Of a DNA stretch of 41,331 nucleotides, positions 1 to 22,777 are shown one piece after another (the first letter of the stretch is position 1; each line of letters starts with the position of its first letter). The notes under the pieces are model-generated. The model had not been told where the DNA came from and did no database searches. It saw only the letters and a program-made list of their open reading frames with translations. Both the position numbers and the translations under genes were made by a program. Source of the stretch: Verrucomicrobiota bacterium (GTDB taxonomy: Bacteria; Verrucomicrobiota; Verrucomicrobiia; Chthoniobacterales; UBA10450); assembly GCA_003219215.1 (NCBI GenBank), contig QHPY01000083.1, forward strand, positions 1-41,331, written 5' to 3'.

Positions 1-335
1 TCCCATTCCGCGGCTTCTTCCGGAAATTTTTCTTCAACTTCACGCCGCGTCATTTGTTCCCAGCGTCCGTGGTTAATTTCACGAAACCCGTCGCGCGCTT
101 GAACTTCAAGTTTATGTGGTCCAGCCAAGATTTGCGCCGTCTCAACCGTGCGACCCAAAGGCGACGCATAGACCGCCATGATTTTTTCGTGACTCAAGCG
201 ATCGGCCAGGCGCCGCGTTTGTTCGCGACCTTCATCGGACAGAGCGACGTCGGTCGCGCCGGCAAAGCGATCTTCAGCGCTCAATACCGTCGCGCCGTGA
301 CGCACCATGAACACTCGCGTGACCGCCGGCTTCAT
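1..335 (-). CDS. Histidine phosphatase (phosphoglycerate mutase-like), N-terminal part, cut by window edge
   Basis: The minus-strand frame opens at an ATG at 335 and runs off the left edge with no stop, giving about 111 residues. Residues 12-16 read RHGAT, the phosphohistidine loop of the histidine phosphatase superfamily. Near residue 52 there is YASPLGRTVETA, which matches the conserved SPL.R..ETA motif, followed by a REINHGRWE segment typical of cobalamin phosphatase/phosphoglycerate mutase-like members. The family removes or moves phosphate through a phospho-His intermediate. The substrate cannot be told: CobC-type, broad-specificity phosphatase GpmB-type and SixA-type enzymes share these motifs. 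The C-terminal half with the second catalytic His lies outside the window. Confidence 0.85.
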   Translation of the reverse strand, partial: MKPAVTRVFMVRHGATVLSAEDRFAGATDVALSDEGREQTRRLADRLSHEKIMAVYASPLGRTVETAQILAGPHKLEVQARDGFREINHGRWEQMTRREVEEKFPEEAAEW

Positions 336-416
336 AATCGTCGATCGTCATCGCGTAAATTCCGCGAAAACGCAATCCTGCCGGTGCGATGTCGATCTTG
401 CCACGCCGAATCGATC

Positions 417-1049
417 TTAACGCTCGATTCCAGGCAGCGTAGGCGTGAGGGCGAAGAAAAGGATCGGAATGAGGGCGGCAGCAACCGCGGACGCAATCGT
501 TAAAACGTTTATGATCCAAACCACCCCGACATTGTCCGGAGGCCACGACAGCCCCAGGATCGCAAGCGGCAGCAGAACGGCCAATATCGCGCTTTCGCAA
601 GCAATGAATCGACGCATTTTTGCTTTGCGACGCCGCTTCGACAGAGGAGTTTCGTCGCTTCGCGGGAACTTTTCAAAAAAGTCCGCTTGCAGATTGGAGA
701 CGGCGACCAGGCGTGGACTTTCAGCAGCCGGATTCTGCGAGACCAGACTTTCCGGCGGAGGCATCATCCGCGGCGGATGCGCGGGTCGGGCGGGCTTCAT
801 TTGAATTACATTTTGGGCAGCCGGCCGCAGCGCTTCGTTGGAAGGTTGCTCTGCATCGTTGTTGGCGACTGGAGCCGGATCCATCGCCGATGTGCGCATG
901 TTCCAGCGGAATTTTGGTTTCAAAGTGGGCTGAAACGGAATCTTCCTGACTGGCGCCTCGGGCTCCTCGTTCGTCGGCTTGGGTGAAGGAGTGACCGTAC
1001 GCATGAAATGATCGGGAAAACTGTACGACTCGCTCGGGATGAGAGACAT
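417..1049 (-). CDS. Hypothetical membrane protein with Pro-rich N-terminus
   Basis: The frame encodes 210 residues and I do not recognise a family. The first 130 residues are hydrophilic and rich in Pro, Ala and Glu. A basic patch (KRRRKAKMRR, about residues 137-146) precedes two hydrophobic stretches at about 150-168 and 176-203, so the likely topology is a cytosolic N-terminal region with a C-terminal hairpin in the membrane. The ATG at 1049 is used; an internal ATG at 1004 is an alternative and neither has a strong ribosome site. It lies upstream of the partial phosphatase on the same strand with an 81 bp gap and is divergent from dinB. The Pro-rich region is low complexity and gives no functional clue. 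Confidence 0.6.
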   Translation of the reverse strand: MSLIPSESYSFPDHFMRTVTPSPKPTNEEPEAPVRKIPFQPTLKPKFRWNMRTSAMDPAPVANNDAEQPSNEALRPAAQNVIQMKPARPAHPPRMMPPPESLVSQNPAAESPRLVAVSNLQADFFEKFPRSDETPLSKRRRKAKMRRFIACESAILAVLLPLAILGLSWPPDNVGVVWIINVLTIASAVAAALIPILFFALTPTLPGIER

Positions 1050-1157
1050 GGCCTGCGGGTGGGAGCCATATGTTTAGCGATTCCAATTTTTCCGGTCAAT
1101 CCAAACATCACTAGGAGCACCAGATGAGATTGACATCTTTTGAAGTTACATTGGCGA

Positions 1158-2231
1158 ATGACAAGCGATGCAACGCCGCGCGCCATCATTCACCTCGACA
1201 TGGATTGCTTTTACGCGGCCATCGAAGTGCGGGACCGGCCGGCTTTGCGCGGAAAGCCAGTCGGTGTCGGCGGCGCACGGGATCGCCGCGGCGTGCTGAC
1301 CACGTGCAATTACGAAGCGCGCGCGTTCGGCGTTCATTCCGCCATGCCGACGTTCATGGCACTGCAGCGCTGTCCAAATCTAATCGTCCTCCCGACGCGA
1401 TTTGATGTTTATCGCCGCGAAGCAGCGGTCGTTCGGGAAATCTTGCACCGCTTCAGTCCGTTAGTGGAACCGCTTTCGCTCGATGAAGCATATCTCGACG
1501 TGACAGCGCATCCCGACGCGCCCGGACCGCTCGCCCAGGTGATTCGCGATTTAATTTTTCAAAAGACTAAACTGACTTCGTCCGCCGGCATCGGGCCCAA
1601 CAAGTTGATCGCAAAAATCGCCAGCTCGACGCGAAAGCCGGACGGGCAATTGGAAGTCAGCATGGCTGAGGTTCCTGGATTTATGGAGAACCTGCCCGTG
1701 CGCGAAATCTGGGGGATCGGCGAAAAGACCGAACGAAGATTGCAGGAGCTCGGAGTCAAAACGTGCAGTGATCTTCAGCGGTTCTCGCGTCCGGAACTTG
1801 TGGATCTTTTCGGAAAATTCGGCGGCGAGCTCTTCGATCTTTGCCGCGGAATCGACGATCGCCCGGTCGAGCCGGACCGGCCGCGTAAGTCGCTTAGTAC
1901 CGAAGAGACTTTTCCGACCGATCTGGAGACGCTGGAACAATGCGAGGAACGCCTCGGAGAACTTTTTCAAGAACTCATGGCCGATTTGGCCCAGAAAGAA
2001 ACGACCCGGCGTGTCACAAAAATCTTTGTGAAGCTTAAATTTGCGGATTTCACCCGGACCACTACCGAACGCGCCGGTTTAGAACCATCGCTGTCTGCAT
2101 TCCGCAGTTTGCTGGCGGAAGCTTTTGCCCGCACCGGCAAAAAAGTGCGTCTGATCGGAGTTGGTGTGCGTTTCGCCGAAAGCGCGCCCGAGGAAATGCA
2201 AATGCCGCTGTTTTCCGGTGCGCCGAATTAA
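1158..2231 (+). CDS. dinB: DNA polymerase IV (Y-family translesion polymerase)
   Basis: This is a 357-residue protein. Residues 12-20 read HLDMDCFYA, which holds the first catalytic Asp (D14) and the steric-gate position (Y19). SLDEAY at 107-112 holds the second acidic pair (D109/E110). The helix-hairpin-helix thumb segment (REIWGIGEKTERRLQELG) and the little-finger domain follow. The C-terminus carries QMPLF at 348-352, close to the QLxLF consensus for binding the beta sliding clamp. The family copies across damaged DNA with low fidelity. I chose the ATG at 1158 because the homologous core starts right after it; an in-frame TTG at 1140 is possible. A good AGGAG site upstream serves an out-of-frame ATG at 1124 instead. 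No LexA-like operator was recognised. Confidence 0.95.
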   Translation: MTSDATPRAIIHLDMDCFYAAIEVRDRPALRGKPVGVGGARDRRGVLTTCNYEARAFGVHSAMPTFMALQRCPNLIVLPTRFDVYRREAAVVREILHRFSPLVEPLSLDEAYLDVTAHPDAPGPLAQVIRDLIFQKTKLTSSAGIGPNKLIAKIASSTRKPDGQLEVSMAEVPGFMENLPVREIWGIGEKTERRLQELGVKTCSDLQRFSRPELVDLFGKFGGELFDLCRGIDDRPVEPDRPRKSLSTEETFPTDLETLEQCEERLGELFQELMADLAQKETTRRVTKIFVKLKFADFTRTTTERAGLEPSLSAFRSLLAEAFARTGKKVRLIGVGVRFAESAPEEMQMPLFSGAPN

Positions 2232-2599
2232 CCCATGACTAATCGCACCAGGACAAGCGCGACAATCCCACCGGCAAACAGCGCGACGACTACGATCTCT
2301 CGTTTCGTTAACAGCGGCTCGGGTTTTCCATTTGGAATGGTGACCTCGCCATTGTTCTCGATCACGCCCAACACATCATCGTACAGCTTTCGGACATCCG
2401 CCGGCATTGCTTCTTCACTCGCGAACTGCTCACCGTTAAACACAAATTTTTTCTTCACCCCACCGTCATGCAGCGCTTTTTGGTAAGCCACGCGGACGTC
2501 GGGAGGCAAATCGGCCGGACTGGCGTATTCCTGCCCGTTGTAACGAATCTTCGTTTTCAGGGTAATGCTCACTGCCTGGCGGAAATCACAGCAATTCAC
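2228..2599 (-). CDS. Hypothetical tail-anchored small protein
   Basis: Up to 123 residues are encoded on the strand opposite dinB, and the two stop codons overlap by 4 bp. The protein has two similar segments: a KIRYNGQEYASPADLPPDVR-like unit followed about 35 residues later by KFVFNGEQFASEEAMPADVR, suggesting an internal duplication of a short module (FNG..-....-.P.DVR). A single hydrophobic helix (about residues 99-121) lies at the C-terminus, so a tail-anchored protein is likely. The start is uncertain: a GTG about ten codons downstream, giving VSITLKTKIRYNG, may be the true start. The function is unknown. Confidence 0.6.
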   Translation of the reverse strand: MNCCDFRQAVSITLKTKIRYNGQEYASPADLPPDVRVAYQKALHDGGVKKKFVFNGEQFASEEAMPADVRKLYDDVLGVIENNGEVTIPNGKPEPLLTKREIVVVALFAGGIVALVLVRLVMG

Positions 2600-2646
2600 C
2601 TGCCATCGGCTCTCGCGCTCTCGTTCTTGTGATAAATTAGCGCCAA

Positions 2647-5469
2647 GTGATCAGTGCCGCCGCTCAACAAAAGATCCGCGCTTCAGGCTGCGACGTGCGT
2701 TTCGATAATCTCACCCGCCAGCTTTACGCCACTGACGCTTCGATTTACCAAATCGAGCCGCTTGGCGTCGCCTTCCCAACCAGCGCGCAGGACGCGAGCG
2801 CGGTCATTAAAGCCGCAGCCGATGAAAACGTTCCGGTCACGCCGCGCGGCGCCGGTACCAGCCTGGTTGGAAACGCGGTCGGCGAAGGATTGATCGTCGA
2901 TTTCTCGCGCCACAATCGCAAGATCGACAACCTCAACATCGACAAGCGCAGCGTGCGCGCCGGCGCCGGTGTCGTCCTCGATCAGTTGAACGTGTTTCTT
3001 GAGCCGCACGGATTTTGTTTTGGCCCCGACGTCGCTACCAGCTCGCGCGCCACCATCGGCGGCATGATCGCGAACAATTCTTCCGGCGCGCACGTTCCAG
3101 TCTACGGCACGACTGCCGATCACGTTCTTTCGACGGAAATCGTTTTGGCCGACGGTCGGATCGTCATTGTCGGTCCGGCAAGTGAATCTTTGCGCGACGA
3201 ACAACGCAAGATCGACAATCTCGTTCGCGCGCACGCGGCAGAAATGGCCGAGCGCTGGCCGCCCGGTTTACTCAAACGTTGGCCGGGCTACGGCATCGAA
3301 CGTTTCTCGCGCACGCCGAACAACCTCAATGAGATTCTCGCCGGGAGCGAAGGAACGCTCGCCGCGATTTTTTCAGCCGAGCTAAAGATCTCGCCGCTTC
3401 CGCGCGACAAAGGACTCGGCCTGATCTTCTTTGCATCCGTCGCCGACGCGATGCAAGCAACCGTCGCGCTTCTCGATCTCAAACCCGCCGCTATTGAACA
3501 CATCGACCGCCCGTTGCTCGATCAAACAAAAGGGCAGCTCCATTTCCAAGCCGCGCGCGATCTGCTCGAGCTCGAGGCACAACCGTGTGAAGCAATCTTG
3601 ATCGTCGAATTCTACGACGATGCGGCCGAGCGCTTGTCGATCTTGCAGTCGCGCTACCTCGGTTTGCGGACGAGAATTTGCCGCGACCCGAACGAGATGA
3701 ATCTCGTTTGGTCGGTGCGCAAAGCCGGCCTTTCACTTTTGACCGGCTGCGTCGGTTCATCGAAACCGGTCGCGTTCATTGAAGACGCAGCGGTTCGTCC
3801 CGCGCAACTGCCCGATTACGTCCGCGGGTTGCAGTCGATCATGAAATCCCTCGGACTGGAAGCGAGCTACTACGGACATGCCGCGAGCGGCTTGCTCCAT
3901 GTCCGGCCCGTTCTCGATCTCCATAGTGCGGACGATTTGCGAAAGTTCAGGCTGGTAGCCGATCAAACTTCCGCGCTCGTTAGGCAATTCAAAGGTTCAA
4001 TTTCGGCCGAGCACGGAGTCGGCATCGCGCGCACCGAGTACATGCGCGATCAACTTGGCGACGCGTTGCTCAATGTCATGCGCGAGATCAAGCGCACATT
4101 CGATCCAAAAAATATTTTCAATCCAGGAAAAATTTTCGGCTTCGCCCACAAGATCGACAATCATCTCCGCCATAATTTCACGAAGTCGCTCGAGCTGCCG
4201 TTCGAGCCGCGCCTCGCGTTCGCGTTCAAGGACCGCTCGTTCATCGGCAATCTCGAGCAATGCAACGGTTGTGGCGGTTGTCTCAAACAGACCGGCATTA
4301 TGTGCCCGACGTTCATGGCGACGCACGACGAAGTCATGTCCACCCGCGGTCGCGCCAACATCATCCGGCGATCGCTCGAACTGCGCGGCAGTGGTCACGA
4401 TCCGTTGAAATCGGCCGAACTCGATGCCGCGCTCAGCAATTGCCTCTCCTGTAAAGGTTGCACGCCGGAATGCCCGTCCAACGTCAATCTCGCGCTGCTC
4501 AAAGCCAACATGCTTTATGCCCGCTACCAACGCGACGGTTTGCCATTACGCGAACGGTTCTTCAGCAACGTCGATCTGCTCGGCCGAATCGGATGCACGA
4601 TGCCATGGCTCGCCAATTCAATTCTCGATCATGCGCCGATGCGCGGGTTGATGGAGAAAACGCTCGGAATCTCAGCGAAGCGTTCGCTGCCGCACTACAC
4701 GGACAAGCGATTTGATCGCTGGTTTGGCAGAAATGCGCAACCAACCGGGGCGGATCGTCCGCGCGGCAAAGTAATTCTCTGGGACGACACGTTTGTCCGC
4801 TATCACGAGCCAAATATTGGCATCGCGGCGGTGAAGGTCCTCGGCGCGCTTGGTTTCGAGGTTGAGCTATTGCAAAATCGAAAATGTTGCGGCCGGCCGG
4901 CGTTCAGTCAGGGAAATCTCGACGCCGCGGGCGAAGTCGGACGCCACAATGTCGATCTTGTGAACGCCACCGCCGAAACGCCGATTGTTTTCCTCGAGCC
5001 GTCGTGCTGGTCAATGTTCGTCGAAGATTATCGCGAACTGGAGATCGACAACGCCGAGAAAATCGCAGCGCGCTGTTTTCTTTTCGAAAAATTTGTGGAC
5101 GATTTGTTGGAGCGCGAACCAGATGCCCTTCGATTCAAAGAGCGAGAGGTTAGCGTTGCGATCCATCCGCACTGTCACGCAAAGTCGATAATCAATCCGG
5201 CGTTCATGGCCACGCTAGTGGAACGGTTGCCGGGTCGCAAAGCAAACTTGCTCGATACTGCCTGCTGCGGAATGGCCGGCGCGTTTGGCGCGCTCGTCGA
5301 GAAATACGAGCTTTCGAAACAGGTCGCGGCCGATTTACTGCGCAAGATCGACAATCAACAACCGGACGTCGTGATTGCGTCCGGCACGAGTTGTCGGCAT
5401 CAAATTGTCGATCTTAGCAGCGTCTGGCCGAAGCACATGGCCGAGCTGCTCGCGGACGCACTCGCGTAA
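2647..5469 (+). CDS. FAD-linked oxidase fused to Fe-S protein (D-lactate/glycolate-type dehydrogenase)
   Basis: This 940-residue fusion joins a GlcD/Dld-like half to a GlcF/LldE-like half. Residues about 36-220 form the PCMH-type FAD domain (PRGAGTSLVG, then NNSSGAHVPVYGTTADHV). The FAD-oxidase C-terminal domain runs to about 500. Two [4Fe-4S] motifs follow: C539/C542/C545/C553 and C599/C602/C605/C609. Two CCG domains are marked by CC-G at 747-749 and 873-875. The family oxidises D-2-hydroxyacids (D-lactate, glycolate, D-2-hydroxyglutarate) and feeds electrons to quinone at the inner membrane face. The start is a GTG at 2647. The gene is convergent with the act/cco operon, with a 3 bp gap. 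It carries seven exact copies of the AAGATCGACA word. The precise substrate is not determinable here. Confidence 0.9.
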   Translation: MISAAAQQKIRASGCDVRFDNLTRQLYATDASIYQIEPLGVAFPTSAQDASAVIKAAADENVPVTPRGAGTSLVGNAVGEGLIVDFSRHNRKIDNLNIDKRSVRAGAGVVLDQLNVFLEPHGFCFGPDVATSSRATIGGMIANNSSGAHVPVYGTTADHVLSTEIVLADGRIVIVGPASESLRDEQRKIDNLVRAHAAEMAERWPPGLLKRWPGYGIERFSRTPNNLNEILAGSEGTLAAIFSAELKISPLPRDKGLGLIFFASVADAMQATVALLDLKPAAIEHIDRPLLDQTKGQLHFQAARDLLELEAQPCEAILIVEFYDDAAERLSILQSRYLGLRTRICRDPNEMNLVWSVRKAGLSLLTGCVGSSKPVAFIEDAAVRPAQLPDYVRGLQSIMKSLGLEASYYGHAASGLLHVRPVLDLHSADDLRKFRLVADQTSALVRQFKGSISAEHGVGIARTEYMRDQLGDALLNVMREIKRTFDPKNIFNPGKIFGFAHKIDNHLRHNFTKSLELPFEPRLAFAFKDRSFIGNLEQCNGCGGCLKQTGIMCPTFMATHDEVMSTRGRANIIRRSLELRGSGHDPLKSAELDAALSNCLSCKGCTPECPSNVNLALLKANMLYARYQRDGLPLRERFFSNVDLLGRIGCTMPWLANSILDHAPMRGLMEKTLGISAKRSLPHYTDKRFDRWFGRNAQPTGADRPRGKVILWDDTFVRYHEPNIGIAAVKVLGALGFEVELLQNRKCCGRPAFSQGNLDAAGEVGRHNVDLVNATAETPIVFLEPSCWSMFVEDYRELEIDNAEKIAARCFLFEKFVDDLLEREPDALRFKEREVSVAIHPHCHAKSIINPAFMATLVERLPGRKANLLDTACCGMAGAFGALVEKYELSKQVAADLLRKIDNQQPDVVIASGTSCRHQIVDLSSVWPKHMAELLADALA

Positions 5470-5472
5470 AAC

Positions 5473-6258
5473 TTAACTCTGCGGTTTGGGCGGAGCCGGA
5501 GGCGCGGGTTTCGCGGCTTCGCCCGGTTTTGGTGGAGCAGCTCCCGCAGGTGCGCCTCCGGGAAGTTCGGTTTCGGCCGGAACAGCGAGCACATCTGGCT
5601 CGGTGTACGATTCAGGATGACTTGCCAATTCTTTGCGTAACGCCGCAATTTGTTCCGCAGTCACCGGACTGGCATTGTTTCCCCACTCGCTTCGCTCGTA
5701 GGTCAGAACGTCGGCGATTTTTTGGTCGGTCAACGTCTTGTCCCACGGTTGCATGACGGCGCTGCCGAATTTTTGGCCTTTCACCGTGACCGGTCCCTGC
5801 AAACCTTTGAGAACAATCATGGCTGGTCGTTTCGAACCGCCCGTGGTGAATTCCGAGCCTGCCAGCGGCGGATATTGACTGGGAACGCCCAGACCGTTCG
5901 CTTGGTGACACGTCTGACAGTTGGCCGCGAAAATCTTTTTTCCGCGATCGCGCGGCGTTAATTCTTGTATCGGACCTCCCGGTCCAGCCGCACTACCTTT
6001 TTTCGCCGGCGGCGGTCCGCCTAACGGATCGAGACCATCACCGGAAAAATTTCCAGAGTAACGACCGAGGTAAGCGCCGCCGGTGAAAATCGCGAGGCCG
6101 TAAACGGCGATCAACCAAATCGAGAGCGGCTCAAGTCCGACGCGCGGTTCGCGTTTCTCGCGTTGGATCGCGGCGTGCACTTCATGAACGTCGGCAGTTT
6201 CGCCGTAATCCATTCCCTGCCGCGTTAAAGATGAGGGATCTGGAGTTTGATCGTTCAT
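5473..6258 (-). CDS. Membrane-anchored monohaem cytochrome c, last gene of act/cco operon
   Basis: This is a 261-residue protein. Its N-terminus is hydrophilic, a single membrane helix lies at about 44-64, and a class I cytochrome c domain follows with CQTCH at 114-118. The last 35 residues are Pro/Ala/Gly-rich. A canonical CcoP carries two haem motifs, so this is either a reduced CcoP equivalent or a dedicated electron carrier. The ATG at 6258 overlaps the stop of the ccoO-like gene as ATGA, which implies translational coupling. The longer upstream frame would run through ccoO and is rejected. The likely role is shuttling electrons between the quinol oxidase complex and a terminal acceptor in the periplasm. 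Confidence 0.88.
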   Translation of the reverse strand: MNDQTPDPSSLTRQGMDYGETADVHEVHAAIQREKREPRVGLEPLSIWLIAVYGLAIFTGGAYLGRYSGNFSGDGLDPLGGPPPAKKGSAAGPGGPIQELTPRDRGKKIFAANCQTCHQANGLGVPSQYPPLAGSEFTTGGSKRPAMIVLKGLQGPVTVKGQKFGSAVMQPWDKTLTDQKIADVLTYERSEWGNNASPVTAEQIAALRKELASHPESYTEPDVLAVPAETELPGGAPAGAAPPKPGEAAKPAPPAPPKPQS

Positions 6259-7346
6259 TTCTTCGGTGGCGCTGGAGGTGGCGATCCGGCTGGCGGCGGT
6301 GCTGGTGATCCGGCCGGTACAGCCGGAGGCGATGCGGCGGGCGGTGCCGCGCCCTCTGCGGTCTTCACCTCTTTCAGCGGATGCGATTGATCGAGCGACA
6401 TCAAATAAGCAACGAGACAGCTGGCGTCGTAGGTTGGAACAATTTCCCAACCCGTTGGCGGCGCATCAGCGCCAGTAAGCTGGAGCGCGTCGGCTGAACG
6501 TTCGGCGCCGATCTGATGTTTCTCGTAAAGAAATTTGTAGGCCGGCATGGTCGAATCTCGATTATCTGGACTCATGCTTCGTGGCGAATAAAGATGTCGG
6601 TGATGCCAGGCGGCAGAATAAACCGGCGGCATTCCGTTTGGATTGGGCGACGCCGACGGAGCCGGCGATGGATTCGCAGCGGCAGCCGATGCTGGAGAAG
6701 AACCTGCTGGTGGCGCAGGCGGAGATGCCGATTGTGGCGGCGCGCCAGCGCCCGGTTTCGGCGGAGCGGCATTCGTAGGTGGAGCAGAAGAAGAACCTGC
6801 TGGCGGAGGAGGCGAACCCGCTGGCGCTGCAGGCGCATTGGCATTCGGCGGTTTTGGCGGGGCAGAATTTGGCGATGGTGGCGGTTGCGCAGCTGCGGGC
6901 GAAGCTGCCGGAGGGTTTGCGCCTGGCGCCGCAGCCGGTTTTTCTTCTTCAGTCGGCGCGCGTTTACCAATATTGGACAGATCGGGGCCCATTCGTTCCT
7001 GTCCGAGCACTACCGGCCGATCAAAAATATAATCGCGCGGTGCGCTGCGGCGCTCAGCCCATTTCGGGCGAGGTGATGGCCCTGCGTCGCGGAGACGATC
7101 GACATCCGCGTAGGCGTAACCGGGCCGGATTTGCTGACTGTGGCAATAGATGCACCCGTTCGCCGCGTAAATCCGCCGGCCGCGGTCGGCCATGCCCGAT
7201 TTCGGAGCGGGATAAATGTCGGTGCCTTCTTCATCCATCTGCGGGTTGAGCGCGCCAATTTGCAGGTTCGGGATTACAGTCAAGCCGACCCACGAGAACG
7301 CGAACGTTCCGAAAACTCCGAGGAAAAGCGGGACCAATCCTTTCAC
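6255..7346 (-). CDS. ccoO: CcoO-like cytochrome c subunit with Pro/Ala-rich insertion
   Basis: This 363-residue protein has an N-terminal membrane helix (about 4-26). The haem site is CIYCHSQQIRP at 65-75, the hallmark of the cbb3 oxidase monohaem subunit FixO/CcoO. A GPDLSNIGKR segment follows. The family continues with W..HL..PRS...S.MP.Y, seen here as WHHRHLYSPRS and STMPAYKFL, the Met being the axial ligand. Between these two parts about 110 residues are almost pure Pro/Ala/Ser/Gly, whereas ordinary CcoO has a short link. It overlaps ccoN-like upstream and the cytochrome c gene downstream by ATGA junctions. Its partner lacks the oxygen site, so assignment as an oxidase subunit is by homology only. 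Confidence 0.88.
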   Translation of the reverse strand: MKGLVPLFLGVFGTFAFSWVGLTVIPNLQIGALNPQMDEEGTDIYPAPKSGMADRGRRIYAANGCIYCHSQQIRPGYAYADVDRLRDAGPSPRPKWAERRSAPRDYIFDRPVVLGQERMGPDLSNIGKRAPTEEEKPAAAPGANPPAASPAAAQPPPSPNSAPPKPPNANAPAAPAGSPPPPAGSSSAPPTNAAPPKPGAGAPPQSASPPAPPAGSSPASAAAANPSPAPSASPNPNGMPPVYSAAWHHRHLYSPRSMSPDNRDSTMPAYKFLYEKHQIGAERSADALQLTGADAPPTGWEIVPTYDASCLVAYLMSLDQSHPLKEVKTAEGAAPPAASPPAVPAGSPAPPPAGSPPPAPPKK

Positions 7347-8827
7347 AAGTGCGTCTCCGATCCCTCGGCTTCGACTGGATTCAAAAATGTCGGGACGGTT
7401 GAAGTGCGGCCAAGGCCGAACAACATCAGGCCAAAATGGAACGCGAAAATGAAATGCGAAATCGTCAATAACAGCGCTGCAACCGTGCGACCTCGTAAAT
7501 ATGGCAACGCGCTTGCCACGCTTTGAATGAACGACATTGAGGGATCATCTTGGGTCGCGCCCTGAGCAAACCCACCGACCAACAACATCAACGACATCAA
7601 TCCAACGCCGTAGGCCGATGCCCAGAAATGGAGTTTGATGAGCGTAGCGTAACGCCATTCACGACCGACCAGGCGCGGCACGGTGTAGTACATCGAACCG
7701 AACATGACCATCGTAAAAAACGCGTACAGTCCGAGATGTGAGTAGGCGATGCTGGCCTCCGTAAAATGCAAGTAGCGCGCGGTTGAGCGGAGCGAGATCA
7801 GGATACCGATGATGCTAAAGACCGTATACGACATCGCGCCGAAGACGGTGAACCGCAGCGTCGGGCTGTAACGCATCACCGGAAAATATCCCTGCATCGT
7901 CATGTGATGATTGAGTCCGACGGTCGCGACCGGAATGATGGTCAGGATCGTTGCGGCGATGCTCGCTGTAATCATCCATGCCGGGAATGGTCCATCGACA
8001 AGGCGCTGCATCCCAGTCCAACTCGAGAACAGCGCGTAGGTCCAAAATCCAATCGTCGCGAGATGATAACTGTAAACCGGGCGCCCGATCACTTTCGGGA
8101 TCATGTAATAAGCGGTGCCGAGCGCGATCGCGCCGAGCCAAAGAAAGAGCAGATTATTCGCGTACCACCAGCCGACCGCCGCCTGCATCACGCCTTGGAC
8201 CGGGACGACGAAGAGCATTGCTTGGGCGGCGGCGTAGAGCCATGGAAACCAGAGAAACGCGCCCAGCAAATACCATTGGGTGATGTAAATCTGGTCGCCG
8301 CGACGAAAGCGGAACATCAACACCGCCCACGACATAATCAGCGCATAAGCAACAAAAAGAACAACCGCGGCATAAGACGGAAACTCGAGCCAGTCGTAAC
8401 CGGTGCTGTAGCCCATGAGAATTCCGATTACACCAATCAGCACACCGATGTTCCAAAACCAAATCCCCGCCACAATCAGCAGCGGATGTCGTAAAGTCGT
8501 CCGGCACAATCGCGCCATCAGCCAGATCGCCGTTCCCATTGCGGCCATCGACGCCCAGCCGTAAACCATCACGTTCATGTGCACCGGACGCAGTCGGCCC
8601 CACGTCAAAAAGCTGACATCGGAGAGCCAGTCGGGTGAATGCAATTTGAACGAAACGAATCCGGCCAGCAGCGTTCCGATTAGTAACCAAACCATCGCTG
8701 ACGCGTAAAACATCAGCACCGGCACGCGCGTCGAAGCATCGATGCGCGCACGCTCGAGCTGTTCTGCGTCGCTAGCGGCAGCCGAAATGACCGGTTCTTT
8801 TAATGGAATGTCAGCGGTTGGAGTCAT
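7343..8827 (-). CDS. CcoN-like haem b protein lacking the haem b3/CuB oxygen-reduction site
   Basis: This 494-residue protein has about 12 membrane helices. It is clearly homologous to cbb3 oxidase subunit I: RLRPVHMN at 78-85, WWYANNLL at 220-227, FWTYALFSSWTGMQRL at 261-276, YSHLGLYAFF at 362-371. Compared without gaps to the canonical motifs, H83 and H364 match the two low-spin haem b ligands. The three CuB histidines are N224, Q274 and R275. The cross-linking Tyr is S268 and the haem b3 proximal His is Y362. These codons were read directly on the minus strand. By established chemistry it should bind one haem b and not reduce oxygen. It sits between a small anchored protein and ccoO-like in the act operon. 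A role in electron transfer or quinol interaction is inference. Confidence 0.85.
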   Translation of the reverse strand: MTPTADIPLKEPVISAAASDAEQLERARIDASTRVPVLMFYASAMVWLLIGTLLAGFVSFKLHSPDWLSDVSFLTWGRLRPVHMNVMVYGWASMAAMGTAIWLMARLCRTTLRHPLLIVAGIWFWNIGVLIGVIGILMGYSTGYDWLEFPSYAAVVLFVAYALIMSWAVLMFRFRRGDQIYITQWYLLGAFLWFPWLYAAAQAMLFVVPVQGVMQAAVGWWYANNLLFLWLGAIALGTAYYMIPKVIGRPVYSYHLATIGFWTYALFSSWTGMQRLVDGPFPAWMITASIAATILTIIPVATVGLNHHMTMQGYFPVMRYSPTLRFTVFGAMSYTVFSIIGILISLRSTARYLHFTEASIAYSHLGLYAFFTMVMFGSMYYTVPRLVGREWRYATLIKLHFWASAYGVGLMSLMLLVGGFAQGATQDDPSMSFIQSVASALPYLRGRTVAALLLTISHFIFAFHFGLMLFGLGRTSTVPTFLNPVEAEGSETHL

Positions 8828-8849: not shown

Positions 8850-9437
8850 TCACAATTGTCCCGGAGATACTGAAGGTGACGCGGCCGGCGCTACGGCCGG
8901 CGATTGCGGCGAAGCAGCCGGAGACGCCGAAGCGCCGGGTTGCGTCGATGGCTGCACTGCCGGCGGATTTACGCCCGCGGCGGGTTGCCCGCGCGCTTCC
9001 GAATTTTGACCGGCAACTGAAGTGGGTTTCGGTGTCCCGCTTGCCTGCGGCGAGGCGGATGGCGCGGGCGTGGCGGCCGCTGCCCCGCCGGGTGCCGCAG
9101 AAGATTCCGGGGCGGTGATCGCGTATGCGGGCGCGGGGTTTTTGTTCGCCAGATCGGCAACAGTTAATTCCATCGCGCGATCGATCGGCAAACGCACCGT
9201 GCCTTTGTTTTTATCGACCCAGGCATAAATCGTGAGCGCCTTCGCGTCTTCATCGCGCGCGTCCTTGAGTTTTTTGGCACGAGCCTCGGCGCGCATTTGT
9301 TCGTAAGTGTCGCCGCGCGGCGAAGGACCAACCACGGCCACAACAATGGCGCCGAAAAGCGCAAACAAGAGCACAACGCCGACCCATGTCGAAAATGGCG
9401 CAGGCGATTGCGTTCGAATTTGCTCGGTATCGGCCAT
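8850..9437 (-). CDS. Small membrane-anchored protein of the act/cco operon
   Basis: This is a 195-residue protein. One membrane helix lies at about 18-37, followed by a charged segment and a conserved-looking block (YAWVDKNKGTVRLPIDRAMEL, residues about 71-91). The final 80 residues are low complexity, rich in Ala, Pro and Ser. The gene starts 1 nt after the actF stop and ends 22 nt before ccoN-like, so it is part of the same transcript. Similar small anchored proteins with a W-D-K...VR-PI..AM block occur by act or oxidase genes in other phyla, to my recollection. No haem motif is present. It may be an assembly or linker subunit, but this is inference. Confidence 0.7.
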   Translation of the reverse strand: MADTEQIRTQSPAPFSTWVGVVLLFALFGAIVVAVVGPSPRGDTYEQMRAEARAKKLKDARDEDAKALTIYAWVDKNKGTVRLPIDRAMELTVADLANKNPAPAYAITAPESSAAPGGAAAATPAPSASPQASGTPKPTSVAGQNSEARGQPAAGVNPPAVQPSTQPGASASPAASPQSPAVAPAASPSVSPGQL

Positions 9438-9438
9438 G

Positions 9439-10641
9439 TCAGTTCACCAGTTTTAAAGATTCGACCAAGTGAGGATCGCGCACCGGGAAGAGCGAAGTTT
9501 TTGCAACGATGCGCAAATAAACGAAAGCCAAAGTCGCGCCGATGGCGATGAGCGCGGCAAAATCCCACAAACTCACGTGCACGCCGGTCCCATGGAGCGC
9601 TGGAAGAACGACGAGGTAGATGTCGAGCATTTGCATCAACAAAATCCACGCAGCCACGTAACAGAGCTGGCGCGGATGTTTCTTGATCGAGCGCAACAGC
9701 AAAATGGCGAATGGTCCGAAGAAACGGCCGAACACCAGCAGCATGCTCAATCCCCACCACGACTCCGTGTTTCGAGTCAGAAAATATTGGATCTCTTCCG
9801 GAATGTTCGCGTACCAAATCAGCATGTATTGGCCGAAGCCGATGTAGGCCCAGAAAACACAGAAGGCGAACATCCACTTTCCCATGATGTGGTAATGCTC
9901 GAGCGTGACCACGTTCTTGAGATAACCGGCGCGCTGGAGCGCGGTGATCACGAGCACAAGCAGCGACATCGAACTGCCGGCCGCGCCGGCGAAAATGTAA
10001 ACGCCGAACATGGTCGAGAACCAGCGGTAGTTGAGGCTCATCAGCCAATCGAACGCGCCGAAGGTCAGACAAAGGGCGAACAGTGGCAGACTGGCGAACG
10101 CGACTTTGCGCAGACGAATGGTGAATCGCGGATTGCCGTCCTTGTCTTGCCGGACCGAAAAGCGGCGCAACAATTGGGACGCGATGATGAAGAAACCGAG
10201 GAAAAACGCCGCGCGAAGCACAAAGAAATTGAGATTTAGATAGGCGCGCTTGGAATCGAGGTTCGCTTCTTTCCCCGGCGCGATGTTCATCCAGGCGTAG
10301 AGATGTTGCCGCAAGAGCAGGATCGGGATGAAAAAGATCGCGAGGACTGCAACCAAGACGGCGATGTTTTCCAGTTGCCGCCTGACGACCACCGTCCATT
10401 CCGCGTCCGTAGCGTAATGCACGATCGTCCAGAAAAAGCAGCCGGCGCACAAGGTGAAGAAGAATCCAAAGGCAAACAGCCAGGAGAAACTGAGCTGCTT
10501 CGGATCAATTGCGGCGCCAGCGCCGCAGAGCGCGAGTGCAACAAACGCCACAACGCCGAGCAAAACAGACAGGCCGGCAAAGCGGCCGCTCTCGAAATAC
10601 TCGCCTTCCGGCGTCGACCCGTTATGCAGGCGATCGCTCAT
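9439..10641 (-). CDS. actF: Alternative Complex III subunit ActF (quinol-binding membrane subunit)
   Basis: This 400-residue polytopic protein has about ten membrane helices. Position in the act order (after ActE) and sequence features such as WLMSLNYRWFSTMFGVYIFAG and FGQYMLIWYANIPEE identify ActF. This is a NrfD-related subunit that pairs with ActC in the quinol:electron acceptor oxidoreductase. ACIII replaces the bc1 complex in many bacteria. Its start overlaps the actE stop as ATGA (10638-10641), and the next small gene begins 1 nt after its own stop. The enzyme acts in the inner membrane, moving electrons from quinol to the c-haem subunits. No truncation was seen. Confidence 0.9.
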   Translation of the reverse strand: MSDRLHNGSTPEGEYFESGRFAGLSVLLGVVAFVALALCGAGAAIDPKQLSFSWLFAFGFFFTLCAGCFFWTIVHYATDAEWTVVVRRQLENIAVLVAVLAIFFIPILLLRQHLYAWMNIAPGKEANLDSKRAYLNLNFFVLRAAFFLGFFIIASQLLRRFSVRQDKDGNPRFTIRLRKVAFASLPLFALCLTFGAFDWLMSLNYRWFSTMFGVYIFAGAAGSSMSLLVLVITALQRAGYLKNVVTLEHYHIMGKWMFAFCVFWAYIGFGQYMLIWYANIPEEIQYFLTRNTESWWGLSMLLVFGRFFGPFAILLLRSIKKHPRQLCYVAAWILLMQMLDIYLVVLPALHGTGVHVSLWDFAALIAIGATLAFVYLRIVAKTSLFPVRDPHLVESLKLVN

Positions 10642-11396
10642 TTCTTTGGCGCCTCCGGTTTTGCTGGCGATTTGGTCTCGGCCGGTTTCGCTTCTCCAGG
10701 TTTCGCCTCCGCCGGCTTGTTCTCGGCTGGCTTTTCCAAATCAGCCCGATGTTCCGGCGGGACATCGACAATCCCCGCGTTCTGACTTCGTTGCAGCGCG
10801 CGAAGATAAGCGATGATCGCCCAACGATCTGCGACCATGATGTTTGGCCCGTAAGCCATCATTGTGTTTTTGCCGTTTGTGATCGTGTTGAAAATTTCGC
10901 CGTCGGCCATTTTGCGAATGCGATCGTCTTGCAAAGTAACGACCGTGTTGAGGCCGTACTGCTTGGTGATTCCATTCCCGGCCGCGGTCGCGCCATGACA
11001 CATCGCGCAGGTAATGTTGAAACGCTCGCGCCCGCGCTGAAGCAATTGCGCCGTGACCGGGACCGGGATTCCAGTTCCCCAACGGTCGACCATTTTTCCG
11101 GTGTCAATATAATCGGTGCCGACGCTAAACCCGGCAACGGGGTGAGACTCGGGCGCGCCGAGCGGTTGAGGTTTTGGCATTTCATAACCGATCGGCACCG
11201 TTCCGTTGACCGGCATGCGAGGACCGCGACCGTCCGCAAAAAAATTCAGCGGCGATTGCGCGCGCACTTTTATCTGGCGCACCATGTCGGGAAAAATTTC
11301 CCACGGCTCATTGGTGGTCTTTTCTCCGCGGAACCCGAGCACGGCCACGGCCGCAATCGTGAGCAAGAGAGAAATTAAAAGGAAGCCGCGCAACAT
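10638..11396 (-). CDS. actE: Alternative Complex III subunit ActE (monohaem cytochrome c)
   Basis: This is a 252-residue protein with an N-terminal membrane/lipoprotein-like hydrophobic stretch (residues 4-21). The haem site is CAMCH at 130-134, with a candidate Met ligand in NTMMAYGP near 187. The domain matches the ActE monohaem cytochrome, which with ActA carries electrons out of ACIII on the periplasmic side. The last about 30 residues are a charged Pro/Ala/Lys/Glu tail (repeats of KPAE/KPGE), which is unusual and resembles tails on other proteins of this operon. It lies 3 nt after the actD stop and overlaps actF by ATGA. Confidence 0.92.
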   Translation of the reverse strand: MLRGFLLISLLLTIAAVAVLGFRGEKTTNEPWEIFPDMVRQIKVRAQSPLNFFADGRGPRMPVNGTVPIGYEMPKPQPLGAPESHPVAGFSVGTDYIDTGKMVDRWGTGIPVPVTAQLLQRGRERFNITCAMCHGATAAGNGITKQYGLNTVVTLQDDRIRKMADGEIFNTITNGKNTMMAYGPNIMVADRWAIIAYLRALQRSQNAGIVDVPPEHRADLEKPAENKPAEAKPGEAKPAETKSPAKPEAPKK

Positions 11397-11399
11397 AAA

Positions 11400-11954
11400 T
11401 CAGTCCTCGTGCACGATCGTGATGTGTTGGCCGCCGCTGCGCTCCAGTAATTCGCGAGCTTCCAGTTCGGTGAAACGCGGGTCGCGCGCTTCGATCACGA
11501 GAAAAAATCCGTCATTGGTCGCGCGGCTGAATCGGTCCCAGTTGAAAATCGGATGATGCGGCCGCGGCAGGCCGTTCATGATCAGGACTGCGAAAAAAGC
11601 GGCAAAGGCGGAAAAGAGAACGGTCATCTCGAACATGATCGGGAAAAACGCCGGCACCGTTTTCCAATCGTACGGTTTGCCGTGCACCACCAATCGGTAG
11701 AGCCCCCATGACGGACCAAATTCAACGAGAATGGCGGTGAGCAATCCCGAAATGCCGCCCGCCAACACGACCGCGCTCAGCCAGGATTTGCCGAGTCCCA
11801 TCGCTTCGTCCATGCCGTGAATTGGAAATGGCGAATGCACGTCCCAGCGTTTGAAGCCGGCATCTCGCACTATTTTCGCCGCTTCATAAAGGGAGGCCGC
11901 GCTCGGATATTCCGCCCCCATCCCATAAACTTCATGACCGGTCGGCGTTCTCAT
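11400..11954 (-). CDS. actD: Alternative Complex III subunit ActD (DUF3341)
   Basis: This 184-residue protein carries two membrane helices (about residues 57-79 and 107-127). The segment [47 protein letters not shown] gives the DUF3341/ActD N-terminal domain; it is shown here only as landmark words [12 protein letters not shown] and [14 protein letters not shown]. ActD has no cofactor and packs between ActC and ActF in known ACIII structures. Its ATG overlaps the actC stop as ATGA (11951-11954). Length and organisation are normal for the family. Confidence 0.92.
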
Positions 11955-13405
11955 GTCCGCTCCCTTCCATCCGCTGCGACGGGATGATGTCCGTTAGGCG
12001 ACGCGGCGTGGGCGTCCGCTTCTGGCAAAACGATTTTCACTTCCGACATCGCGATCATCGGTAGGAACCGGATGAAGAGGAGGAACAGCGAAGTGAAAAT
12101 CCCGAGTGTGCCGATGAACGTCCAGATGTCGACCCAGGTTGGAATAAAAATACCCCATGCCGACGGAATGAAATCGCGATGCAATCCGCCAACGATGATG
12201 ATGAAACGCTCGAACCACATCCCGGCGTTTACGCACATGCAAACGAAGTAAACGACGAGAATGTTACGCCGGCACCAGCGGAACCAAAAGAGCTGCGGCG
12301 AAAGCACGTTGCAGAACAACATGCCCGTCCACCAGTACCACCAATACGGGCCGAGCACGCGGTTCCAAAACGCGAACCGCTCGTAAGCGTTGCCGCTGTA
12401 CCAGGCCACGAAAAATTCCATGGTGTAGGCGTAACTAACGAATGAGCCGGTCAACAAAATGATCTTCGCCATTTTGTCGATGTGCTGCGGCGTGATGATG
12501 TCGTGCAGTTTGAAAATGGCCCGCGCCGGAATGAGCAACGTCAGCACCATGGCGAACCCGCCGAAAATGGCCCCCGCGACAAAGTAAGGCGGGAAAATTG
12601 TGGTGTGCCACGTCGGCAAGATCGACGTCGCGAAGTCGAACGACACGACGCTGTGAACCGAGAGCACCAGCGGCGTGGAAAGTCCGGCCAACAGCAGATA
12701 CGCCATTTCGTAATGCCGCCAGTTGCGGTTCGACCCGCGCCAGCCGCAGGCGAACACGCCGAAGAGAAATTTTTTGATCTTGGTTGTGGCGCGATCGCGC
12801 AGCGTTGCCAGGTCGGGGATCAATCCGGTGTACCAAAACAAAACCGAGACCGTGAAATAGGTCGAGACTGCAAACACATCCCACATCAGCGGGCTGCGGA
12901 AGTTCGGCCAAATGCCGTAGTTGTTCCAAACCGGCGCGAGATACCACGCCATCCAAACACGGCCGACGTGCACGCCCGGAAAAATCGCTGCGCACATGAC
13001 CGCGAACAGCGTCATCGCTTCGGCCGAACGGTTGATCGACGTCCGCCATCTTTGCCGGAGCAAATACAAAATGGCGGAGATCAAGGTGCCGGCGTGTCCG
13101 ATACCGATCCAGAAAACGAAGTTGGTAATGTCCCACGCCCAACCGACCGGATGATTGAGTCCCCAAGTGCCGACGCCGGTGGAAATTTGGTACCCGAGAC
13201 AGAACAGACCGAACATCGCGATCGAGCCGGTGATGCTGAAACAAACCCACCACCAACGCGGCGCCGGTTGTTCTACCACGCCGGAAATGCGTTCCGTGAT
13301 CCAGCTGAAGTTGCGTTTGTTCAACACCAGCGGCGCGCGCTTGATCCGGGATTCCGCCGTCGATGCGGCCTCGCTCTCAATCACATCTGTTGGTGCGGCG
13401 TTCAT
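11951..13405 (-). CDS. actC: Alternative Complex III subunit ActC (NrfD/PsrC family)
   Basis: This 484-residue membrane protein of the NrfD/polysulfide reductase C family has about ten helices. Landmarks include [49 protein letters not shown] (read as the quinol-site helix pair) and [14 protein letters not shown]. The family binds quinol at the periplasmic side and passes electrons to the adjacent Fe-S protein (ActB). It follows actB with a 22 bp gap that holds an exact AAGATCGACA word at 13415-13424, and overlaps actD by ATGA. No missing segments were seen. Confidence 0.93.
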
Positions 13406-13427: not shown

Positions 13428-16400
13428 TCACGCCTTCTCCCCCGGACAGGCGACGCCAATGTTGTCTGCGTCCGGCATTTTCGGATTTGGATTGCGGATC
13501 CGCCCCAGATAACTCGTGCGCGCTTTCACGTTCAAATAATCGAGCAGCCGGTAATTGCGGTCCTGCTGTTTCATCTTCGAAACTTTGCTTTCCGGATCTT
13601 TGATGTCGCCAAAAGTGATTGCTTCGTGCGGGCAGGCTTGCGCGCACGCGCTCGTGAACGAATCCCGCGGAATGCGAATGTCGCTCGACGCGCCGGCATG
13701 GACGTGGGCCGCGATCTTCGCTTCCTCGATTCGCTGCACGCAAAAAGTGCATTTCTCCATCACCCCGCGCATCCGGACTGTGACGTTCGGATTTTTTTGC
13801 ATCTTCGTGATGTCAGGCGCGCCTTTTTCGGTGAACGGCGCGACGTACTCGCGATAAATCCCAAACTCTCCCGCAATTTTCTTTTTCCCGATCGGCCGCT
13901 GGTTGTAATCGAAGAAATTGAATCGGCGCACCTTGAACGGACAATTGTTGGCGCAATAACGCGTGCCGACGCAGCGGTTGTAGGCCATGACGTTGAGTCC
14001 GTCCTCGCTGTGAATGGTGGCGTTGACCGGGCAAACGGTTTCGCACGGCGCGTTCTCGCAGTGCTGACACATCATCGGTTGGTGCACCATCTCCGGATCC
14101 TGGGGAAACTCGCCGTTATCTTCGTCGAATGGTTTCGCGCTCGCGTAATAGCGATCGATTCGGAGCCAGTGCATCGCGCGTCCGTGCGCAACTTGTAATT
14201 TGCCGACTATCGGAACGTTGTTCTCGGCCTGGCACGCGATGACGCAGGCGCTGCAACCGGTGCAAACATTGAGATCGACCGTCATTCCCCATTGCTGCGG
14301 CGCGTCCATTGGCGGGTGGCTGTAAAGCGATGGCAAATACGACTGCGGTTCGTCCATCCCACCGCACTTTTTCACGAACTCATTGTCTTCGCGGTATTTA
14401 TCCAGCGTTGCTTCGCGCACGACGCCGCGGCCTTCGATGCTCCAATGTTCCTGCGTGTTCGCGAGTGGATATTTCTTTCCGACCTTCGTCACGCGCACGC
14501 TCTCGATATTCTTGCCATCGGCGACTGCGAAATGCAGATTGCTCGCCGTGCGCAAAAGGTAGGTATTAAACCCGGATTCGTCGGCGATTGGGCCAGTCTT
14601 TTTCCGTCCGTAGCCGATCGGAATCGTGACCGAATTCTCGGCGTGACCGGGCAAAACGTACGCCGCGATCACCAGTTCGCGTCGAATCGGTCGATCATTC
14701 GCGTCTCTCGCCGTGTCGTTAATTGAAATTTGAATCAGATCGCCGGTCTCGACGTTGAGTGACTTGGCGAAGTTCGGGCTCATGATCGCCGCGTTGTCCC
14801 AAGTAAGTTTTGTTATTGGATCGGGCAATTCCTGGAGCCAGCCGTTGTTGGCGTAACGGCCATCGTCCATCGCGTAACTGCGAACAAAAACGATTTCAGG
14901 AGATTCCGACGTCGGCGCGGGCGTTGTGGTCCAAAGCTGGTGCGTCAGCTGGGCAGCGGCGCCGTCGTTGAATGTGACCGGTCGATCGCGCAACGGAACA
15001 TGCGCGGCAAATCCGTCCCGCAAGAATTTCGACCACGCGGTCGGAAGATCACCGGGAGGTTTGGTCGCGCGAAAAGTTTCCTGAACGAGCTCGGGTCCTT
15101 CGACTTTCGGCCGGCCAAGGAGCCCATTCATGATTTCGATTTCGCTCAGCCCGCCGAAAAGCGGCAGGATCATCGGTTGGATCGATAAATACGCGCCGTC
15201 CGAGGTGAGCGCGTCGCCCCACGATTCCAAATAATGCGCCAACGGCACGTGCCACTGGCTGATTGTCGATGTTGCGTCCTCGTGATAACCAACTCGCACC
15301 ACTTCCGGCACTTTCTTTTGCAGATCGGCCCAATCGAGCGGCGTCTTTTTGTCCGGATCCTGCCCGACTGCGCGCGGCGCGTTGTAAACCGGGTCGCCAC
15401 CGAAGATGAAAAGCGCTTTTATTTCGCCGCGATGCATCCGGTCGGCCAGCTGCAAAATGTTTTTCGTGTTCCGATTGCGCGGAAATTCCCGGACCACCAC
15501 TGTGCGTCCGATATTCTTCAGCGCGGAGTTCATCGCGTACGCGAGCAGTTGAACAACAACCGATTGCTGTTGGCCGGCGAGAACGATGCTCACGCCCGAT
15601 TTCGAGACCAGATCGTTCGCCAATTCAATCAGCCATTTCTCATCGAACGGCAGCGTCTCGGCAGGCGTGGCCAGGGTAGCGAGCAACGACAGCAGAGCGG
15701 AGTCTTTGGTCAGAGTGGCGATTTTGCCGGCGAGCACATGAGTGAACAGCGGGATCTGACTGGCGGCGCAGCGCAGCCGATGATCGGCCATCGCGCCAGT
15801 GATGGTGAACCTGTTCTCAACGACATAGAGCCGGTTCATCGTGTCTTTCGACGATTTCACGCGGCGTCGCTGCGTGAATGCGCGGGCGGAAGCGAGATCG
15901 CCTTCGCCGCAGTCAAGAAAATCGCTGTCGAGCGCGAGCACAACGTCGGCGCGGTCAAATCGCGGAATCAATCGCACATTTTCGCCGAAGCTGGTCCGGG
16001 TCGCGTCATCTTGCGCCTCGCTCAGCGCCGCGTCGTAGACGCACCACATCATTTTCGGGAACGCCTTTTCCAATTCGGCTCGCAATCTTTCTCGAGTCGG
16101 CGAATGCAATTCTTCAACCAGGAAAGCCAGACCATCGCCACCGTTCGATCCAAGCTGGCCCCGCAATTTGTCGATGTAGGCGTCAAACTCACCGCGATTG
16201 GAATCCTTGCCGCGATTCACGAAGCGCCGCGACCGCGCCGGATCGTAAAGATCGAGAACGGAGGCTTGCGCGAACGTGTCGGTGGCGCCGGCGCTGGCGG
16301 GATGAAGCGGATTGCCCTCCACCTTGATCGGCCGGCCGTCAACGGTGGTTGCGATCAGCGGAATTGCGCCGGTGCGGCGCGGCATCGCCGTGGCGTAGTA

Positions 16401-16688
16401 AAGAAATTTTCCGGGAATCGTCCACTCGGCGCTCTTAGTGAACGGAACGAGGTGCATTTCCGGACGGCGGCAACTCGTTAGACCAAGACCGGCCAATGCC
16501 ATTGAGGCGCCCATCAACTTCATGAAATCGCGCCGCGACCATTCGTCTTCGCTAATTTCGGAAGCGCCGGCCGGAAATTCGCGCTCCAGCCACTCGCGAA
16601 ACTCCGGGCTATTGCTGTATTCGCCGAGACTCCGCCAGTATTTCTTTCCGGTCAGCGGCTCAGGCGGATGTTGGAAAACGCGTTTCAT
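13428..16688 (-). CDS. actB: Alternative Complex III subunit ActB (Tat-exported Fe-S / molybdopterin-fold protein)
   Basis: This 1086-residue protein has a twin-arginine signal with RR at 52-53 (SRRDFMKLMGASMA), ending near a TSC that could be a lipidation site. A long molybdopterin-oxidoreductase-like domain follows (about 80-760); this region in ActB is known to lack the molybdenum cofactor. A ferredoxin-type domain then starts with C809/C812/C815/C819 and continues with further Cys groups (CQHCENAPCETVCP, CVGTRYCANNCP, CTFCV...CAQACP). These fit three [4Fe-4S] and one [3Fe-4S] clusters in the family. The ATG at 16688 overlaps the actA stop as ATGA, so the 33 extra upstream codons of the open frame are rejected. 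Confidence 0.95.
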   Translation of the reverse strand: MKRVFQHPPEPLTGKKYWRSLGEYSNSPEFREWLEREFPAGASEISEDEWSRRDFMKLMGASMALAGLGLTSCRRPEMHLVPFTKSAEWTIPGKFLYYATAMPRRTGAIPLIATTVDGRPIKVEGNPLHPASAGATDTFAQASVLDLYDPARSRRFVNRGKDSNRGEFDAYIDKLRGQLGSNGGDGLAFLVEELHSPTRERLRAELEKAFPKMMWCVYDAALSEAQDDATRTSFGENVRLIPRFDRADVVLALDSDFLDCGEGDLASARAFTQRRRVKSSKDTMNRLYVVENRFTITGAMADHRLRCAASQIPLFTHVLAGKIATLTKDSALLSLLATLATPAETLPFDEKWLIELANDLVSKSGVSIVLAGQQQSVVVQLLAYAMNSALKNIGRTVVVREFPRNRNTKNILQLADRMHRGEIKALFIFGGDPVYNAPRAVGQDPDKKTPLDWADLQKKVPEVVRVGYHEDATSTISQWHVPLAHYLESWGDALTSDGAYLSIQPMILPLFGGLSEIEIMNGLLGRPKVEGPELVQETFRATKPPGDLPTAWSKFLRDGFAAHVPLRDRPVTFNDGAAAQLTHQLWTTTPAPTSESPEIVFVRSYAMDDGRYANNGWLQELPDPITKLTWDNAAIMSPNFAKSLNVETGDLIQISINDTARDANDRPIRRELVIAAYVLPGHAENSVTIPIGYGRKKTGPIADESGFNTYLLRTASNLHFAVADGKNIESVRVTKVGKKYPLANTQEHWSIEGRGVVREATLDKYREDNEFVKKCGGMDEPQSYLPSLYSHPPMDAPQQWGMTVDLNVCTGCSACVIACQAENNVPIVGKLQVAHGRAMHWLRIDRYYASAKPFDEDNGEFPQDPEMVHQPMMCQHCENAPCETVCPVNATIHSEDGLNVMAYNRCVGTRYCANNCPFKVRRFNFFDYNQRPIGKKKIAGEFGIYREYVAPFTEKGAPDITKMQKNPNVTVRMRGVMEKCTFCVQRIEEAKIAAHVHAGASSDIRIPRDSFTSACAQACPHEAITFGDIKDPESKVSKMKQQDRNYRLLDYLNVKARTSYLGRIRNPNPKMPDADNIGVACPGEKA

Positions 16689-17410: not shown

Positions 17411-17500
17411 AATCAGCGGAAGCCCTGTCCGGACCAACACAGCCGCCACTTTAGAAACGAATTCAAATCGGTCTCAGGATGTGCACACATCGAAGCCATC

Positions 17501-22640: not shown

Positions 22641-22777
22641 ATCCGGAGAGAGACCGACCGATAATATACCATTAGTCAAGCGGCGTGCCGGTGCAATTCG
22701 CGCGCTGCTAGGCGCGACCCGCGAGTGGACTCCATCTCTTGAACATTGCATGTTTGATGCTGTCCAACTTCGAACAA

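Follow-up and report, generated by a model that had tools for sequence, protein, structure and literature searches.

The window analysed here, 41,331 nucleotides, constitutes an entire contig (G000:C93) of a draft genome of 2.33 Mb in 199 contigs, and the named genomes closest to it are soil Chthoniobacterales/Spartobacteria MAGs (94% to AV11, 84% to a Candidatus Udaeobacter MAG). Its minus strand carries, from position 17449 down to 5473, a single tightly packed operon with the gene order ActA–ActB–ActC–ActD–ActE–ActF–p195–CcoN–CcoO–cytochrome c, in which all genes are co-directional, gaps do not exceed 22 nt and several neighbors overlap by 4 nt. The first six genes encode, in order, the subunits of alternative complex III (ACIII): ActA (16685–17449), a pentahaem cytochrome c recognized by profile matches and five CXXCH motifs; ActB (13428–16688), molybdopterin-like with Fe-S domains (TIGR04519 and Fe-S matches), for which an internal ATG was taken as the start on the basis of the TAT domain; ActC (11951–13405), the NrfD-like quinol-site subunit (PF03916, E = 1e-21); ActD (11400–11954; PF11821, E = 2e-53); ActE (10638–11396), a mono-haem cytochrome c (PF13442); and ActF (9439–10641), an ACIII membrane subunit assigned by its position and its conservation in ACIII operons. 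A preliminary description had placed the CcoN-like gene in an ACIII operon, and the Pfam and NCBIfam matches together with the conserved order bear this out.

The remainder of the operon begins with p195 (8850–9437), a protein of 195 residues with one apparent transmembrane segment and no match in a Pfam search, whose homologues occupy the same place between ActF and CcoN in most loci surveyed. The CcoN-like gene (7343–8827) is followed, with a 4-nt overlap, by a gene for a CcoO-like (FixO) mono-haem cytochrome c (6255–7346; PF02433, E = 5e-19) with a CIYCH motif at residue 65, and the ATG of the last gene, encoding a membrane-anchored, CcoP/caa3-like mono-haem cytochrome c with a CQTCH motif (5473–6258; PF00034, E = 2e-13), overlaps the CcoO stop codon by 4 nt. 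The ActA–ActB and CcoO–cytochrome c overlaps measure 4 nt given the starts chosen here. In the CcoO-like protein a Pro/Ala-rich insert of more than 100 residues separates the CXXCH part from the rest of the haem domain, and similar Pro/Ala-rich tails are found on p195 and the cytochrome c. Elsewhere in the window, positions 21255–22799 encode an L,D-transpeptidase (YkuD) domain fused to ankyrin repeats; scans of the window for RNA families, tRNAs and promoters returned nothing of use.

The CcoN-like reading frame is unbroken over 494 amino acids, as first described, and matches PF00115 with 202.9 bits. CcoN of Pseudomonas stutzeri (3MK7) aligns over most of its length (profile alignment; phmmer E = 4e-45) at 25% sequence identity. 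The predicted fold (pLDDT 87.7) has 3MK7 as its top Foldseek match, with TM scores of 0.86/0.92 and an rmsd of 2.0 Å, and the profile alignment, an independent MAFFT alignment and the superposition of the predicted fold on 3MK7 all yield the same register. We read this register against the cofactor assignment of the 3MK7 ligand positions, which we take to be established knowledge of the cbb3 structure. Both low-spin haem b ligands are retained (H60 = H83, H347 = H364), as is R57 (R80 in the window), which in CcoN contacts a haem b propionate. Every ligand of the binuclear center is replaced: the CuB histidines H207, H257 and H258 by N224, Q274 and R275, and the proximal haem b3 histidine H345 by Y362. 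The cross-link tyrosine Y251 corresponds to S268, and the active-site glutamate E323 to I340. Alignment to the P. stutzeri protein and structure prediction thus uphold all residue assignments of the preliminary description (H83, H364, N224/Q274/R275, S268 and Y362), and the absence of binuclear-center ligands agrees with its view that the protein is not an oxidase. Nor does the protein qualify as a nitric oxide reductase of the NorB type, because the positions matching the FeB histidine ligands, those of the CuB histidines, are gone. At 171.9 bits it falls short of the NCBIfam ccoN equivalog cut-off of 583 bits; since an intact ACIII-linked relative also scores below it (234.7), the missed cut-off alone is not telling. 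Judged by sequence and predicted fold, the protein would be a catalytically dead heme-copper oxidase subunit, a pseudo-CcoN, a proposition that we weigh below jointly with its possible role.

Could the protein still be an oxidase or a nitric oxide reductase, with its ligands relocated? One residue invites the idea: H255 is a new histidine, conserved in the window's family. It precedes the Y251 position by 13 residues, however, which makes it an implausible CuB substitute. H307/H308 are conserved in intact relatives as well, and a search of the window's family for other conserved histidines able to replace the CuB or haem b3 ligands found none; in the fold-supported register, no conserved histidine falls at or near either site in sequence. 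The other dead lineages likewise have no replacement ligand in common. We consider relocation very improbable. Still less credible is a pseudogene or a sequencing or assembly error, for which a draft genome in 199 contigs might give occasion: the identical loss is common to all 65 of 65 family sequences, their frames are open, and dN/dS is 0.05, and we reject this explanation. In a separate locus (L039), a single copy carries H207R in an otherwise intact CcoN, which could be the onset of decay or an error.

Loci were gathered by a genome scan and by class and phylum searches, and 80 class- or phylum-level regions were read with their context. A homologue is present in 50 of 58 relatives, and the operon ActABCDEF–(p195)–CcoN–CcoO–cytochrome c is spread through the class Verrucomicrobiae. 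After removal of duplicates there are 155 distinct ACIII-linked CcoN sequences, 36 with the complete binuclear-center ligands and Tyr251 and 119 without. None of the 65 sequences of the window's own clade has the complete set, and most other dead families have lost nearly every ligand. One genus (g20) mixes an intact copy (L138) with dead ones (L137, L049 and L141), and another dead copy (L163) sits within an intact group. One sequence 85% identical to the window gene, within the same operon, comes from a contig deposited as Acidobacteriota (L060), probably a mislabelled bin.

These distributions bear on the history of the loss. In a mixture-model tree from which the ligand columns were left out, parsimony requires at least four changes at the binuclear center and at least seven at the low-spin site. 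A single loss inherited by all dead copies was considered and rejected: an AU test rejects the tree that groups all dead sequences (p = 0.0075), and intact and dead copies occur inside one genus. The tree has long branches and its deep placements are uncertain; the L163 and g20 cases of repeated loss are independent of the deep branching. As read from the sequences, ligand loss is recurrent and class-wide, which goes beyond what the preliminary description expected.

Purifying selection on the gene is strong. Compared with its closest relative, CcoN has a dN/dS of 0.05, and pairs of family members that have lost the low-spin ligands give 0.05–0.10, similar to ActC; these estimates are rough, as dS often exceeds 1. 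Such values and the conserved operon support the earlier view that the gene is kept as functional. The intact sister clade has 131 conserved sites, of which 24 have changed in the window's family, including every binuclear-center ligand and the lining or polar-channel residues G211, T215, S240 and S276.

ACIII-linked CcoN proteins with all histidines and the tyrosine (L119–L135, L138, L142–L161) carry Gln, Leu, Ile, Thr, Ala, Met or His at Glu323, and homologues away from ACIII with the full ligand set have Gln at 323 (L042:1773-3260, L208, L209, L212, L213 and L214); the first of these is a second CcoN copy, from a genome that belongs to the same family as the window.

What does the retained low-spin haem site do? 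The window's protein probably still binds one low-spin haem b, to judge by its ligands, as a structural or side-path cofactor. Both ligands are present in 52 of the 62 scorable members of the window's family and absent in 10, and all 52 members with both ligands keep R57, H60 and H347; this retention suggests that the haem does something there. R57 is found in all 52 of these proteins, in 6 of the 10 without the ligands, and in 1 of 62 in the broad dead group. The preliminary description suggested a non-oxidase electron-transfer unit coupled to ACIII; with the low-spin haem b as its functional element, a b/c-type unit of this kind could move electrons between the periplasmic c-haems and the membrane interior, for example to or from quinone. 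The presence of H83, H364 and R80 in the window and in most of its family would fit such a unit, and the selective loss of only the binuclear center suggests that the low-spin haem was useful. Yet the low-spin ligands have changed at least seven times. In the window's genus group, L059, L060 and L007, close to the window at 85–86% identity, now have Y/D, Q/Q and Q/Q in their place, and the broad dead group lacks them almost throughout, with the operon unchanged. Moreover, a low-spin haem without b3 has no known acceptor. That the ligands were lost in relatives while the gene remained under strong selection makes haem b electron transfer dispensable. It may operate in window-type proteins but cannot be the general, conserved function, and we consider a haem b unit as the purpose of the gene to be a tentative alternative, less probable than the reading that we favor.

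The persistence of haem-free versions under purifying selection could also be accommodated by a role that needs no redox cofactor, in ion or proton handling or in conformational coupling to ACIII, as for the NrfD-like ActC and ActF. All groups share several charged or aromatic residues that lie away from the haem pockets, which is compatible with such a role. However, the window's family has lost the polar channel residues T215, S240, Y251 and S276; we regard this explanation as unlikely.

The haem c sites of the partner proteins have fared differently from those of CcoN. In addition to the CIYCH and CQTCH motifs of the window, the CXXCH motif of CcoO is present in all 115 ACIII-linked dead operons that have the gene in reach, and that of the cytochrome c in 100 of 102 dead operons, the two exceptions (L105 and L113) looking like truncated reading frames. 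The CcoO-like and cytochrome c partners named in the preliminary description thus retain their haem c sites. CcoN and CcoO genes occur together in ACIII-linked dead operons wherever the contig allowed. Their overlap and co-occurrence might be explained if CcoN did no more than help to assemble or anchor CcoO and the cytochrome c, touching neither ACIII nor aa3 directly, but such a role would leave the class-wide linkage to the ACIII operon unexplained, and we think it improbable, about as much so as a role in ion handling.

A complete oxidase, suggested earlier as something to look for elsewhere in the genome, is indeed encoded there: contig C178 carries an A1-like aa3 (A-type) oxidase operon with HPEVY and CuA motifs. 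In L253, a relative from the same genus, open frames that match the window's FAD-linked oxidase and DNA polymerase IV-like genes in size and strand separate the cytochrome c gene from CtaD; by this order, the aa3 operon on C178 may lie just beyond the window's left end (window 1–5469, L033). Among window-family operons, aa3 genes are found 3–7 kb past CcoN in 11 of 23, with none downstream within reach in 12; in dead operons of other families with room, they begin 1.2–2.5 kb past CcoN in 29 of 42, with none downstream within reach in 13. Genes for aa3 follow intact operons too (11 of the 19 with room), so adjacency to aa3 is no evidence either way concerning ligand loss.

We propose the following model. 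The ancestral protein would have been the catalytic part of a cbb3-like oxidase whose genes accompanied those of ACIII. Upon loss of the haem b3/CuB site, the protein may have been retained as the membrane body of a CcoN–CcoO–cytochrome c module that docks on ACIII. Electrons would then travel over c-type haems, from ActA/ActE to CcoO, the cytochrome c and the CuA of aa3, with oxygen reduced at the aa3 oxidase. One low-spin haem b probably persists in the window's protein and would be gone elsewhere. A dead oxidase that scaffolds, in the membrane, a cytochrome c wire leading from ACIII to aa3 is our favored explanation, to which, together with the catalytic death of CcoN, we assign a probability of roughly 55%; the linkage is known from genes, and the supercomplex and its electron path are a conjecture built on it. 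Such a c-haem scaffold fits the data better than haem b transfer. Against it stand the operons without adjacent aa3 genes and the low-spin site kept by 52 of 62 family members.

How does this module relate to known systems? With cbb3 oxidase of P. stutzeri it shares the CcoN fold (TM 0.86), the low-spin haem b ligands, the CcoO partner and the order N–O; it differs in its linkage to ACIII, its 25% identity and the absence of the CuB histidines, the haem b3 histidine, the cross-link tyrosine and E323. Intact ACIII-linked CcoN proteins of other Verrucomicrobiae (for example L121, L138 and L151) resemble the window's in operon, position and low-spin site, at about 45–55% identity, but have an intact binuclear center and tyrosine, the active-site glutamate being replaced by Gln or other residues. 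Like the cofactor-free NrfD-type subunits ActC and ActF, the protein may be a membrane body within a redox complex without cofactors of its own, although the fold is unrelated and CcoN is a former enzyme. The ACIII–aa3 supercomplexes of Flavobacterium johnsoniae and Rhodothermus marinus share the ACIII core subunits and an A-type oxidase as the likely terminal acceptor; to our knowledge, a CcoN/CcoO module is absent from the published ACIII–aa3 complexes. The F. johnsoniae supercomplex is a precedent for the scaffold (PMC8552683). It also counts against it, as ACIII there reaches aa3 without a CcoN/CcoO-type module, and even without ActE (PMC8552683).

In Methylacidiphilum, the same order, ActABCDEF–CcoN–CcoO–cytochrome c followed by aa3 CtaD, is found, and the ACIII-adjacent genes have been called a cbb3-type, high-affinity oxidase (PMC6688271, PMC8498564). 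In the pmoA-positive genomes surveyed here (L203, L210 and L211), presumably Methylacidiphilaceae given pmoA, the ACIII-adjacent CcoN lacks the ligands, including the low-spin ones, and aa3 CtaD follows. A search for a true cbb3 elsewhere in a complete methanotroph genome (G070) gave norB as the only other candidate, the remaining COX1 proteins being A- or B-like. On sequence grounds, the genes next to ACIII that are annotated as "cbb3 oxidases" in verrucomicrobial methanotrophs would thus belong to the dead group, and a heme-copper oxidase would have been made, repeatedly and independently across the class, into a non-catalytic ACIII–aa3 linker that includes several "cbb3 oxidases" of the literature; we judge the two propositions together somewhat more probable than their negation. 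A search of the open-access literature turned up no account of the ligand loss, and a prior remark in subscription papers is possible.

Counts of heme-copper oxidase genes in genomes serve as a basis for inferring oxygen affinity and lifestyle. Our reading would mean that an apparent high-affinity cbb3 is no oxidase in an abundant soil group, the relatives of Ca. Udaeobacter, and likewise in acidophilic methanotrophs, where it served to explain high oxygen affinity. Within one conserved operon, these genes offer a natural series from an apparently active enzyme to a haem-free pseudoenzyme, which renders the role of each cofactor in ACIII–oxidase complexes testable.
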